A stretch of 64,000 nt of DNA from Acidovorax sp. NO-1 (GTDB taxonomy: Bacteria; Pseudomonadota; Gammaproteobacteria; Burkholderiales; Burkholderiaceae_C): NCBI RefSeq assembly GCF_000238595.1, contig NZ_AGTS01000047.1, positions 1 through 64,000 of the forward strand. Direction: 5' to 3'. The translations under genes were made by a program, and so were the position numbers. A model generated the notes under the pieces. It worked only from the letters and a program-made list of their open reading frames with translations, made no database searches and had not been told where the DNA came from. The stretch's first letter is position 1, and each line of letters begins with the position of its first letter. Of the stretch, positions 1,882 through 62,650 are shown piece by piece.

Positions 1882-4006
<2,125 letters not shown>

Positions 4007-4050
4007 GAGCAGGCGCGAGTATAGGCCAGCGCCGTTGCGGCGCCGGGCCG

Positions 4051-32991: not shown

Positions 32992-33037
32992 GGGCCCGAT
33001 TGTCGCGCGGCCGCTGCCCCGTCACCTCGCACGCCCC

Positions 33038-33121
33038 GTACAAGGGCACCCACGGAGCCGGCTTCGCCGGGCCATCGGGTGCGTCCCCCTGGGGGAAAGC
33101 GGCGCAGCCGTTTAAGGGGGC
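33038..33121 (-). repeat. Family 2 post-stop structured element after xerC
   Basis: Minus strand begins CCCCCTTAAACGGC, in which the TAA is the xerC stop, then CCCCCAGGGGGACG, then GCACCCG...CCGGC-GAA-GCCGG...GTGGGTGC. Confidence 0.75.
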
Positions 33122-39501: not shown

Positions 39502-41187
39502 ATGCCCCGCACCAGCCAACACCTGCACCCCCACCGCGAACCCGTAGCCACCCGCCCCGCCGCCACCGTGCTGCTGCTGCGCGATGCGCCCGATGACGGT
39601 GGGCTCGAAGTTTTGATGACGCGGCGTTCGGACAAGGCCAGCTTTGCGCCAGGCGCCTATGTATTCCCCGGCGGCGGCATCGACGCGCTGGACGCTGCGC
39701 CCGTCACCCACGCCGTGGCCCACCGCCGCCCGGCGCAGAGCGACCTGCACCTGACGCAGGCCATCGCCGCCATCCGCGAGAGCTTTGAAGAACTGGGCGT
39801 GCTGCTGGCCCGCCATGCCGACGGCCCCCGCAAGGGCCTGATGGCAGACGCCGACGACATCGCCGCCATCGACCGCCACCAGCCCTTTGCCGCGCAGTGC
39901 GCTGCACGGGGCCTGCGCCTGGCGGCCGATGCGGTGTACCTGCTGGCCCACTGGACGGCCGACCGCGACCTGGCGCGCCGCTTCGAAGTGCCCTTCCTCG
40001 TCGCCCGCATGCCCGAGGGCCAGGAGCCCGTGGCCGACGAGTCCGAGCAGTTCGAGCCCGTGTGGGTGCGCCCTGCCCACGCTCTGGCGCGGCACGAGGC
40101 GGGTCAGTTCTTCATGATCTTCCCCACCATCCGCACGCTGCAGCGGCTGGCCAAGTTTGCCGACACCCAGGCGGTGCTGGACGCCGTGGCGCACGAGCAG
40201 CCCCTGTGGGTGAGCTGCCCGCGCGCGGGCACGCTGGCAGGCAAGGAAGCGCGCTACATGGAAGACGAGTCGCCCTTCGGCGAGTTAGCGCTGGTATGCC
40301 CCGACGGGCAGATCGTGCACGCGCTGGACTGGCAGACCGAGCGCCCGGTGCCGCTGCTGCGCAACGTGATGCGCCTGACAGCCCCCAACCCTGGCGTGAT
40401 GACCGGCCCCGGCACCAACAGCTACCTCGTGGGCGACCCCAGCACGGGCTTCATCGCCATCGACCCCGGCCCGGCCGATGCCGACCACCTGGACAAGCTC
40501 TGGCGCGCAGCGGGGGGAGACATCCGCATGATTGTGTGCACGCACTCACATGCCGACCACTCCCCGGGCGCCGCGCCGCTGCAGGCTCTGTGTGTGCAGG
40601 CAGGCAAACCCAAGCCCCCTATCCTGGGCTTGCCATCGGCCAACACGGCACGCGCCGCCAGCCAGTTCACACCCGACCGATCGCTACAAAATAATGAGCT
40701 ACTAGCGCTTACAGGAAAAGCACCAGAGGGTGAAATGACCCATACCCTGCAGGTGATCTACACGCCCGGCCACGCGGCCAACCACCTGTGCCTGCTGCTG
40801 GTGGAAGACGCTCTGCTGTTCAGCGGCGACCACATCCTGAACGGCAGCACCACGGTGGTCGACCCGCCCGACGGCAACATGGCCGACTACCTGGATTCGC
40901 TGGACCGGCTTCATGCTGTGTGCGCCGAACACGGCGTGGAGTTCATCCTGCCTGCGCACGGCTATGTTCTGGGTGATGCACGCGGTGCGATTGCCCGCCT
41001 CAAGGCCCACCGTCTGGCCCGCGAGGCCAAGGTGCTGGCCGCCATGCAGGCATTGCCGCAGGGCAGCATGGACGACTGGGTACAGCACGCATATGACGAC
41101 GTGCCCCCGCGCATGTGGCCGGTGGCCCAGCGCTCGCTGTTGGCGCATGTGGAGCGCATCCGGGCACAACAGCCTGGGAATAATTGA
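39502..41187 (+). CDS. Nudix hydrolase - metallo-beta-lactamase-fold fusion
   Basis: A 561-residue two-domain hydrolase. Residues about 1-250 are Nudix-like: FPGGGIDALD near 55 and RESFEELGV at 92-100. The Gly-to-Arg spacing is longer than in a standard Nudix box, similar to the interrupted box of NUDT19-type CoA pyrophosphatases. Residues about 290-560 are an MBL fold with THSHADH, GHAANHLCLLL and FSGDHILNG, like LACTB2/glyoxalase II-type enzymes, and end in a winged-helix-like tail. Residues about 393-413 come from a family 1 repeat. Substrates are unknown. Confidence 0.85.
   Translation: MPRTSQHLHPHREPVATRPAATVLLLRDAPDDGGLEVLMTRRSDKASFAPGAYVFPGGGIDALDAAPVTHAVAHRRPAQSDLHLTQAIAAIRESFEELGVLLARHADGPRKGLMADADDIAAIDRHQPFAAQCAARGLRLAADAVYLLAHWTADRDLARRFEVPFLVARMPEGQEPVADESEQFEPVWVRPAHALARHEAGQFFMIFPTIRTLQRLAKFADTQAVLDAVAHEQPLWVSCPRAGTLAGKEARYMEDESPFGELALVCPDGQIVHALDWQTERPVPLLRNVMRLTAPNPGVMTGPGTNSYLVGDPSTGFIAIDPGPADADHLDKLWRAAGGDIRMIVCTHSHADHSPGAAPLQALCVQAGKPKPPILGLPSANTARAASQFTPDRSLQNNELLALTGKAPEGEMTHTLQVIYTPGHAANHLCLLLVEDALLFSGDHILNGSTTVVDPPDGNMADYLDSLDRLHAVCAEHGVEFILPAHGYVLGDARGAIARLKAHRLAREAKVLAAMQALPQGSMDDWVQHAYDDVPPRMWPVAQRSLLAHVERIRAQQPGNN
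40681..40740 (+). repeat. Family 1 dispersed repeat inside the Nudix-MBL gene
   Basis: Plus strand: ACAAAATAATGAGCTACTAG, CGCTTACAGGAAAAGCACC, AGAGGGTGAAATGA. In frame, encoding RSLQNNELLALTGKAPEGEM within the MBL domain. Confidence 0.65.
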
Positions 41188-41270
41188 TGCCCCCTGAGGC
41201 GCTGCGCGCCTTCCCCCTCAGGGGGACGCCACCAGTGGCCCGGCAAAGCCGGTTCCACGGTGGCACTGGC
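41188..41270 (+). repeat. Family 2 post-stop structured element
   Basis: Starts two bases after the Nudix-MBL stop: CCCCCTGA-GGCGC-TGC-GCGCC, CCCCCTCAGGGGG, then GCCACC...CCGGC-AAA-GCCGG...GGTGGC. Confidence 0.8.
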
Positions 41271-41360
41271 ATGCGGTAGCGCCCGTTTTGAAGGCACCGC
41301 CGACAATCACGCATTTGCCCCTTCGATTCCCACACGGCAAATGCCTTCCTTCCTCACCCT

Positions 41361-42149
41361 ATGACCGAAAAAAACCCCGACCCCACCCACATCCGCCTGG
41401 CCAAACGTGTGGCCGAACAATTGAACTGCTCGCGCAGCACGGCTGAGCAATTCGTCGAAGGCGGGTTTGTGAGCGTGGACGGCCAGGTGGTGGAAGCCGC
41501 AGGGGCCCGTGTGCGCCCCGACCAGGTCGTGACGGTAGCGAAGGACGCGAGTCTGCTGGAGCTGACGCCGGTCACCCTGCTGCTGCACAAGCCTGCCGGT
41601 TTCGAAGCCGGGCTGGGTCAGCCGGCCCAAGGGGGTGCGGCCCACGCCAGCCGCAGCCAGGGCGCCACCCCGGCCACTTCGCTGCTGGAGATTGCCTCCC
41701 ATCTGGCAGAAGACGCCTCGGGCATCCGCGTGTTGCAACGCCACTTCAAGCAGCTCGAATGCTTCACGCCGCTGCCCACCGAGGCCAGTGGCCTGGTGGT
41801 TTACACCCAAGACAAACGCATCGCGCGCAAGCTGGCCGAAGACATCGAGTCGCTGGAACAGGAGTGCATCGTCGAGGTGAAGGGCGACATCGCCAACCAT
41901 GGCTTGCAGCGCCTGTGCCACGGCCTGACGTTCAACGGCCGCCCATTGCCCCCCATCAAGGTGAGCTGGCAAAGCGAGACAAAACTGCGTTTTGCACTCA
42001 AGGGCATCCGCCCGGGGCAGATTCCGGCCATGTGCGACGCCGTGGGCCTGAGCGTGGTGGCGATCAAGCGCATCCGCATCGGGCGGGTACCGCTGGCCAA
42101 GGTGCCGGAGGGGCAATGGCGGTATTTGCAGCCGTGGGAGAAGTTCTGA
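41361..42149 (+). CDS. RsuA/RluB-type pseudouridine synthase homologue, catalytic Asp missing
   Basis: A 262-residue protein with an N-terminal S4 RNA-binding domain (IRLAKRVAEQLNCSRSTAEQFVEGG) and a pseudouridine synthase fold (LLLHKPAGFE, then VKGDIANHGLQRL, and IRPGQIPAMCDAVGL...IKRIRIGRVPL). The catalytic GRLDxxSxGL motif reads TPLPTEASGL at 136-145, with Pro where the Asp nucleophile should be. It is either inactive as a synthase or uses another residue. It keeps the RNA-binding features, so a role as rRNA-binding protein is possible. Confidence 0.82.
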   Translation: MTEKNPDPTHIRLAKRVAEQLNCSRSTAEQFVEGGFVSVDGQVVEAAGARVRPDQVVTVAKDASLLELTPVTLLLHKPAGFEAGLGQPAQGGAAHASRSQGATPATSLLEIASHLAEDASGIRVLQRHFKQLECFTPLPTEASGLVVYTQDKRIARKLAEDIESLEQECIVEVKGDIANHGLQRLCHGLTFNGRPLPPIKVSWQSETKLRFALKGIRPGQIPAMCDAVGLSVVAIKRIRIGRVPLAKVPEGQWRYLQPWEKF

Positions 42150-42240
42150 CTCCCTCTGAGTCGCCTTCGGCGCCATCCCCCCGAGGGGGACGCACCCGGT
42201 GGCCTGGCGGAGCCAGTTCCACGGGTGCGCTGGCGGTGCC
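42148..42240 (+). repeat. Family 2 post-stop structured element
   Basis: Begins at the stop of the preceding gene: CTCCCTCTGA-GTCGCCTTCGGCGCC, CCCCCCGAGGGGGACG, GCACCCG-GTGG-CCTGGC-GGA-GCCAG-TTCCACGGGTGC. Confidence 0.8.
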
Positions 42241-42283
42241 GCGCCCACTGCTGGCAGCGGGATCAGAAGAAGCTACGCCGGAA

Positions 42284-42352
42284 ATATAGCTATTGAAAAC
42301 ATAGCTATTAGCGCTTATTGGTAAAGCGCTAGAGGCCAATTTGGCTCAAAAC
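42284..42352 (+). repeat. Family 1 dispersed repeat, best-preserved copy
   Basis: Plus strand: AACATAGCTATTAGCGCTTA, TTGGTAAAGCGCTAGAGGCC, AATTTGGCTCAAAA. The stem TAGCGCTT/AAGCGCTA is intact. Intergenic, just after a family 2 element and before the DUF898 gene. Confidence 0.8.
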
Positions 42353-44924: not shown

Positions 44925-44955
44925 GTGCGCCCAACGCGTCAAGATTGAATAAGTG

Positions 44956-45389
44956 TGAAGCGCGCCGATAAGCCGGATTCTGTGCACCACGGTTGCCCGC
45001 AGTGTGACCGCCATTAATCTGGGCCGGGTGTCGCCACCACGGCTCGGTGCTACCTACCCGCCAGCTCTGCGGAACCACATCAACGCTGGCCTACTTGGTA
45101 TTGCTGCGCGTAGAGATTGCCCGTTTCACCCAAGTCGCGTTCCGCGCCTTGGGCGGCTATGGGGCTTCAGGCTTGCGCCTGAGCGTCTGGCTTACGCCAG
45201 CCGGTGCCAGCTTGCGCTGGCCCCCCATAGAACACCCTTGGTGGCTGAAAACGACCTGACTCGTCTCTGTTGCTCTGATCCTCACCTCACGGTGGGCAGC
45301 CGTTAGCTGCTACGCTGTCCTGTGCAGTCCGGACGTTCCTCCAGTGCCTGGTTTCCCAGATTGCACCAGCGGCGGTCTGGCGTGCTTCA
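44956..45389 (-). ncRNA. rnpB: RNase P RNA, bacterial class A
   Basis: Catalytic RNA of RNase P, minus strand, about 430 nt. The 5' P4 strand is GGAGGAACGTCCGGACTGCA (near 45343-45322) and the 3' end carries ACAGAATCCGGCTTATCGG (near 44984-44966), the two most conserved blocks. The region between 45157 and 45230 forms an 8-bp stem that closes three small GNRA-capped hairpins, which makes the molecule larger than the E. coli one. Ends are approximate. Confidence 0.92.
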
Positions 45390-62514: not shown

Positions 62515-62566
62515 TCCAGCTGGCACCGCATGCGGCACCGCCCCATGAAACCGCCACTTCCCCACC

Positions 62567-62650
62567 CCAGCGCACCCGTGGATCCGGCTTCGCCGGTCCA
62601 GGGGGTGCGTCCCCCTCAGGGGGAAGGCGCGCAGCGCCGCAGGGGGAGCA
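62567..62650 (-). repeat. Family 2 post-stop structured element after gltL
   Basis: Minus strand begins at the gltL stop: CTCCCCCTGC-GGCGC-TGC-GCGCC, CCCCCTGAGGGGGACG, GCACCC...CCGGC-GAA-GCCGG...CACGGGTGC. Confidence 0.8.

Follow-up and report, generated by a model that had tools for sequence, protein, structure and literature searches.

Bor-1 repeats of the Bordetellae are intergenic and predicted to be structured; models of 93 and 117 nt gave 128 and 196 members in two species, 78 and 92 of them full-length (PMC1590033, PMC2267715). The 2006 paper describes Bor as REP-like and near coding regions and reports that stem-loops generally prefer the 50 bp after stop codons, and these two points are already known (PMC1590033). 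The Beta-proteobacterial repeat element (BRE), present in Bordetella, Polaromonas, Acidovorax, Delftia and others, is ~90 bp long and usually intergenic; some copies overlap the ends of ORFs by a few bases, and tandem copies occur (PMC3110155). Neither BRE nor bprJ is mentioned in the portion of PMC11722255 covered here. REP sequences of E. coli are hairpins in 3' untranslated RNA whose effect on translation is reported to be limited to a distance of less than 16 nt from the stop (PMC12306157). GTAG-REPs are small single palindromes (20-40 bp), the end of which gives a gene its stop codon, TAG (PMC3733652).

The 64,000-nucleotide stretch of Acidovorax sp. NO-1 that we analysed (the window) holds four copies of an element that we read as a dispersed non-coding RNA module forming the 3' edge of cistrons. 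Its membership of the Bor-1/BRE clan is very probable, judged by size, copy number, tandem copies and Bordetella homologues, not by published consensus. Clan members measure about 75-117 nt, number several to more than 100 and are mostly intergenic. The element is ~100-150 nt long in all, some copies being longer than those published, and a covariance model built from 26 copies (R1) finds 113 places in the 5.0-Mb genome (E up to 0.01; 150 candidates scored), at gene ends. Homologous copies in Bordetella are also a clan trait. The stretches selected by a pattern derived from copies outside the family number 59 and come from Achromobacter, Bordetella and one Burkholderiaceae bin; R1 gave 57 matches in 56 of these 59 pattern-selected loci. 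Tandem copies at one locus, again as in the clan, were found three in a row 120 nt apart (L166), as pairs in L168 and L169, and, at the xerC and pseudouridine synthase sites, also as pairs in relatives.

The passages on Bor considered here give no stop spacing, orientation or occurrence outside the Bordetellae (PMC1590033, PMC2267715). BRE has 1-29 copies per genome, some of them inside genes, no function is given for it, and the section on the repeat does not state stop anchoring or sense orientation (PMC3110155). Figures and supplements aside, neither these passages nor that section describes a strict sense placement at stops, a stop within the element, a covarying structure or ~100 copies per genome in many Comamonadaceae-type genomes. 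Like E. coli REPs, the element consists of hairpins in 3' untranslated RNA, but 106 of its 114 copies are in sense and no more than 15 nt from a stop, whereas 446 of 4,072 REPs, or 260 of 496 in an older study, are that close (PMC12306157). Unlike RAYT-mobilised REP elements, it has no visible link to RAYT. It resembles GTAG-REPs in that the repeat can provide the stop codon, but differs from them in being multi-hairpin (PMC3733652).

Window copies and their covarying structure

All four copies reported in the earlier note were found in the window, scoring 79.9-108.2 bits with R1 (Table 1). They had been described as always starting at or overlapping a stop codon. The first C-run indeed begins 2, 2 and 4 nt past a TGA stop in three copies and the stop lies inside the fourth, but 'always' becomes 93% genome-wide. 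The copies were drawn too short: they continue 17-21 nt past the ends given for them, through a third hairpin. The statement that none has a U-tract holds for the shorter element only, and some copies have a short T run after hairpin 3, such as the GTTTT at 41285-41289 and the GTTTC of the 62650 copy.

Table 1. Positions of the element in the window and of its parts in copy 1
Feature	Position	Strand	Remarks
Copy 1, full element	41189..41290	+	model R1, 108.2 bits; after stop TGA (41185-41187) of MBL-fold-like gene (39502-41187)
Copy 1, first C-run CCCCC	41190..41194	+	2 nt past stop; read from sequence
Copy 1, stem 1 GGCGC/GCGCC	41198..41210	+	both-side changes in 2/6 pairs (26 own-genome copies), 5/6 (copies outside model)
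Copy 1, second C-run and G-run, CCCCC-TCA-GGGGG	41213..41225	+	long hairpin instead in other copies
Copy 1, nested hairpin 2, GCCACC..GTGG..CCGGC AAA GCCGG..CCAC GGTGGC	41228..41264	+	both-side changes in 8/15 pairs (26 own-genome copies), 12/15 (copies outside model)
Copy 1, hairpin 3 ACTGGC/GCCCGT	41265..41286	+	imperfect in copy 1; runs into TTTT; beyond the earlier note's end
Copy 2, full element	42151..42252	+	after stop (ends 42149) of pseudouridine-synthase-like gene
Copy 3, full element	33021..33120	-	stop TAA (33114-33112) of xerC-like gene inside element (CCCCCTTAA)
Copy 4, full element	62546..62647	-	after stop (ends 62651) of amino-acid-type ABC transporter ATPase gene

Read from the stop, the element is composed of a 5' extension of ~8 nt, CCCCCTGAG, stem 1, the second C-run with the G-run, ACG, the nested hairpin 2 and hairpin 3. 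The 5' extension is close to ATGAARC in one subtype and to GGAACA in another, and it contains TGA in 7 of 14 copies of one subtype (counted by eye). The second C-run pairs with the G-run either over a few nucleotides or as a long hairpin. In the best copies hairpin 3 reads ACTGGC...GCCAGTTTCA. A number of copies have GTTTC or GTTTT behind it; among the copies inspected, the T's mostly number three or four at most, and five in a few. Of the 114 copies in the genome, 106 keep the first C-run intact and 110 the second, and 98 have a G-run after it.

A structure of 32 pairs in four helices was set against an alignment of 26 own-genome copies, in which 91.4% of the cells pair; 31 copies were looked at and five left out (L019, L020, L022, L025, L028). 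Both sides change at 13 of the 32 pairs (8.6 in shuffles; reached by 2/500), the both-side-change cells number 59 against 21.3 in shuffles, and the covariation score is 0.211 against 0.086, neither of the latter two being reached by any of 500 shuffles. Further pair types are not in excess in these 26 copies (24 against 21.8; 86/500). Slid versions of the structure score far lower, a control that favours the structure since it was derived from one alignment row. Another 61 copies outside the model (60 distinct), from other genomes and aligned to the model in a way that leans towards it, have both-side changes at 24 of 32 pairs and a score of 0.364 against 0.135. The paired stem changes that first drew attention to the element (CCGGC/GCCGG versus CTGGC/GCCAG, and GCACCC/GGGTGC versus GCCACC/GGTGGC) are real, and the covariation that the earlier note proposed to test exceeds shuffles in the 26 copies and in those from other genomes. 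The structure, consisting of stem 1, the C-run/G-run hairpin, the nested hairpin and the third hairpin, is kept by compensatory changes. It is this covariation that makes the structural case, as single-sequence folding is unremarkable in three of the four window copies (z of -3.29, -0.82, -1.44 and -1.74).

Rfam 15 gave no match at the elements in the whole window at gathering level, nor at E up to 1 in 41150-42300, a region that covers copies 1 and 2 only. The window also contains an RNase P RNA (class A; 44953-45388, minus strand) and a TPP riboswitch (3893-4016, minus strand).

Anchoring to stop codons

The genome comprises 5,011,736 bases in 161 contigs, the window being contig 115. A nucleotide search of it gave at least 40 matches (40 of 131 candidates scored). 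The 119 model matches in own-genome loci correspond to 114 distinct copies after removal of 5 duplicates from overlapping loci. Stop distances were obtained with a simple, home-made gene finder that relies on codon usage and had the window (54 genes) as its training set. In 110 of the 114 copies the element is in sense with the preceding gene, and in 106 the model starts between -12 and +15 nt from the preceding stop, with none at +16 to +29. Of the other eight, four are antisense and four, in sense, lie 30, 83, 94 and 166 nt away. Random placement in non-coding DNA is expected to put ~5.5% of copies in sense at -12 to +15 nt. The genome-wide search with a covariance model, suggested in the earlier note, thus recovered copies that are random neither in placement nor in orientation with respect to stops, and it extended to related genomes.

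Another dispersed repeat (ATAGCT..AGCGCTT) served as a control. It occurs in both orientations and at wide distances, and 5 of its 34 copies are in sense at 15 nt or less from a stop (Fisher P 1.5e-18 against 106/114). An annotated record agrees with the placement of the element: on a plasmid of Diaphorobacter sp. HDW4B (Comamonadaceae), the last base of the protocatechuate 3,4-dioxygenase gene is locus position 1496, and position 1500 is the first of the element. The control repeat, ATAGCT..AGCGCTT..AAGCGCTAGAGGCC, is present on the plus strand of the window near 42300, 35223 and 62300 and has no stop preference; it resembles the Polaromonas repeat ATAGCT(N)22CAAAAG (PMC5217627).

The stops before elements include TAA and TAG besides TGA, and the spacers are variable. 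No preference among stop codons was established, TAG ending 19 of 101 genes with and 31 of 275 genes without an element-like sequence (P 0.06). Coding read-through was considered and set aside; the stop-to-element spacers are not multiples of three. The anchoring is partly built in, because the element can supply the stop codon itself. Each of the four antisense copies (L012, L019, L023, L030) starts within 14 nt of an opposite-strand start codon, a position that a translation-termination model does not predict.

Spread, empty sites and age

In whole-genome searches of relatives, 150, 101, 20 or 10 candidates were scored per genome, and their copy numbers are at least the figures obtained. Each of the 23 congeners sampled yields matches, a single one in one case. 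Within the family, and with stricter filters, 133 of 200 genomes and 103 of 141 genera have matches. In the order they are present in 15 of 399 genomes, four of which are outside the family. Relatives of the element are found in Bordetella petrii, Bordetella genomosp. 2 and Bordetella sp. BOR01, and Achromobacter belongs to the Alcaligenaceae. A search of phages found no similar DNA. The position at a stop is seen in 30 of 35 copies from ten other genera of the family (the best-scoring matches of ten genomes, one of which, L137:1482, is a reverse-strand match atop another copy) and in 40 of 53 copies with an upstream gene at the pattern-selected Achromobacter/Bordetella loci, where 4 of the 57 matches had no upstream gene inside the locus and were left out. 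The figure is 12 of 21 in genomes of the order outside the family, second and third tandem copies included, and 2 of 5 on plasmids. Sense placement directly at stop codons is found in genomes of two families. On a Burkholderia anthina plasmid (L164), a copy lies in a catabolic cluster between the genes for 2-hydroxymuconic semialdehyde dehydrogenase and an alpha/beta hydrolase.

Sites with and without the element can be compared among close relatives. The pseudouridine synthase neighbourhood was examined in 30 congeneric genomes, our own included. The element follows the gene upstream of pseudouridine synthase in 10 (three weak, at 45-49 bits) and the pseudouridine synthase gene itself in 9. 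At the upstream-gene site, read by eye, the other 20 genomes comprise 13 with a gap of -8 to 42 nt, two that are otherwise different (L123, which has another gene there, and L128) and five (L108, L111, L120, L122, L124) with another repeat ~35-50 nt past the stop. This third repeat is palindromic (GCTGAGC..TTCGACA..GAACGG) and also occurs in L022 and L031. With and without the element, the upstream protein ends in ..QPGNN or close to it, the last residues being changed in L109, L119 and L129. A gene tree gives 6 changes at the upstream-gene site and 4 at the pseudouridine-synthase site, with labels set by eye and decayed copies in L128, L104 and L106 counted. The xerC site has a clear copy in 11 of 30 genomes and a decayed one in 3 (by eye); five of the clear copies have TAG directly before the C-run, and in six the stop is inside the element. 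Between infB and rbfA, the element is present in sense in 4 of 30 congeneric genomes (our own, its conspecific and two more; by eye), in 25 others CTG TAA is followed by a gap of 2-39 nt, and one further genome (L287) has a decayed antisense copy. Where infB carries the element it ends CTA TGA, then GTC or GAC, then ACCCCC, and therefore the stop appears to come with the element. Related species thus differ in the presence of the element at the same stop, with the protein C-terminus unchanged or nearly so.

The closest pair of own-genome copies is 93% identical and the median nearest neighbour 87%; as no pair exceeds 93%, no recent spread is visible there. Of 11 stretches that the pattern selected in Bordetella petrii BT 1 9.2, R1 recognises 10, and copies are up to 99% alike. 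There, 2 of 9 copies with an upstream gene are at a stop, and several are joined to another repeat. These nine pattern-selected copies, a small sample, suggest that insertion is not confined to stops and that the anchored copies are those kept. Six loci of the same genome (L194, L195, L208, L212, L215, L228) share a flank of ~14 nt with TGA, none of them at a gene end, and several come after a GGTGTCAGGC-type repeat. Spread driven by RAYT was considered and rejected: the one PF01797 (RAYT/Y1 transposase) gene in the genome has no element in its 3.3-kb locus, and no co-occurrence with PF01797 is visible among family genomes, some being element-rich without PF01797 (G056, G065, G098) and others the reverse (G052, G057).

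Possible roles of a stop-adjacent RNA block

We tentatively favour a REP-like 3' RNA module that is kept where it abuts the terminating ribosome, a mechanism that we infer and that may well prove incomplete or wrong. The folded block on the mRNA would act as a REP sequence does close to a stop, being near enough to meet the ribosome that finishes the upstream cistron. It could slow ribosome release, or the cleavage and trimming of the 3' end of that cistron, and the slowing would set the yield of the upstream cistron relative to the next one. The tight spacing would then reflect the retention of copies touching the terminating ribosome rather than an insertion enzyme that recognises stops. A sharp limit at ~15 nt is predicted by contact with the terminating ribosome and not by simple exonuclease protection. 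The looser placement of the young copies in B. petrii favours retention over targeted insertion, and we count on the same side that the structure is kept although the own-genome copies are old, as well as the copies inside infB-rbfA and lolCE-lolD. Against this reading stand the antisense copies, the built-in stop, the weak folding z-scores of three of the four window copies, and the lower share of copies at stops outside the family and on plasmids.

The main rival is plain protection of the 3' end, in which the hairpins hold up 3'-to-5' exonucleases and thereby make the upstream cistron more stable, the ribosome playing no part. It is unlikely but credible. Covarying hairpins at cistron 3' ends, many of them between co-oriented genes, are what it predicts, and stabilisation of co-transcribed mRNA has been proposed for Bor (PMC1590033) and reported for REP sequences (PMC12306157), but a barrier would work at any distance, which leaves the sharp limit and the upkeep of the first C-run unexplained. 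Decidedly unlikely, in our estimate, is a functionless non-autonomous mobile element placed at gene ends by its insertion enzyme or by a 5' end that supplies a stop. Patchy presence at the same site, tandem copies, 5' extensions with TGA, the apparent replacement of the native infB stop (CTG TAA to CTA TGA) and the young burst in B. petrii all fit such an element. However, that burst is mostly not at stops, near-identical copies are missing from the own genome, no association with Y1/RAYT genes is visible, all three stop codons and variable spacers are used, and the compensatory changes argue for upkeep.

The earlier note read the element as an RNA-level feature of gene 3' ends, which is well supported by orientation, position and covariation, genome-wide and in other genomes; the role in termination that it also offered is disfavoured. 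A host transcription terminator or attenuator that spread as a repeat appears improbable. The sense position after stops, the covarying hairpins and the T's after the third hairpin speak for it, but the intrinsic-terminator hallmark of a hairpin with a U-rich tract is not seen, and terminator calling gave none at the elements of window copies 1 and 2. The element sits between genes of infB-rbfA-truB and lolCE-lolD (named by NCBIfam), the gap to the next same-strand gene has a median of 57 nt (85 gaps), and convergent ends are not enriched: of the 109 sense copies with a downstream gene (110 sense copies in all), 89 precede a same-strand and 20 a convergent gene, a make-up about like that of gene ends in the 64-kb window (45 same-strand and 4 convergent pairs). 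Internal promoters may exist, but a promoter directly after the element was hinted at by GACAATC after copies 1 and 3 and then rejected, as the promoter-like GACAAT occurs in just 6 of 85 following gaps; the wider GAYAAT occurs in 1 of 19 element-free gaps. Strong termination is unlikely because of the location inside these two gene series, the short gaps, the lack of preference for convergent ends and the rarity of promoter-like motifs. Very improbable is a ribosome-gated switch, in which both C-runs would vie for the single G-run and the first would be hidden under a terminating ribosome, the fold thereby signalling whether the stop is occupied. The order of C-run, hairpin, C-run and G-run is the same in both families, the first C-run is well kept and close to the stop, and blocking it raises the predicted pairing of the second C-run with the G-run from 0.56 to 0.76 in short-loop copies. 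Yet in the predicted folds, pairing between the first C-run and the G-run is the minority state, averaging 0.26 over the 41 short-loop copies and 0.11 over the 51 with a long hairpin; it exceeds 0.5 in only 17 of these 92 copies, and blocking the first C-run changes little in long-hairpin copies (0.76 to 0.88).

A bolder extension could be drawn, which we consider unlikely. The element would be a modular 3'-end cassette of Burkholderiales that can carry its own stop along with a multi-hairpin block, replaces cistron ends even inside infB-rbfA and is read by the terminating ribosome, which would set how strongly neighbouring cistrons are expressed. Control linked to translation termination would then be widespread. 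The 106 anchored copies are on ~2-3% of genes (gene number extrapolated from 54 genes in 64 kb). Intergenic bacterial repeats are mostly described as 'near genes'; here a structured repeat is locked to the stop in one orientation, with kin in a second family. The filled and empty sites in sister species are natural experiments on what a structure next to a stop means for the release of ribosomes, the decay of mRNA and the coupling between adjacent genes. In two of the congeneric loci (L102, L103), a 14-nt unit that includes the stop codon, TGATGCCCCCTGAG, is repeated head to tail before the element.
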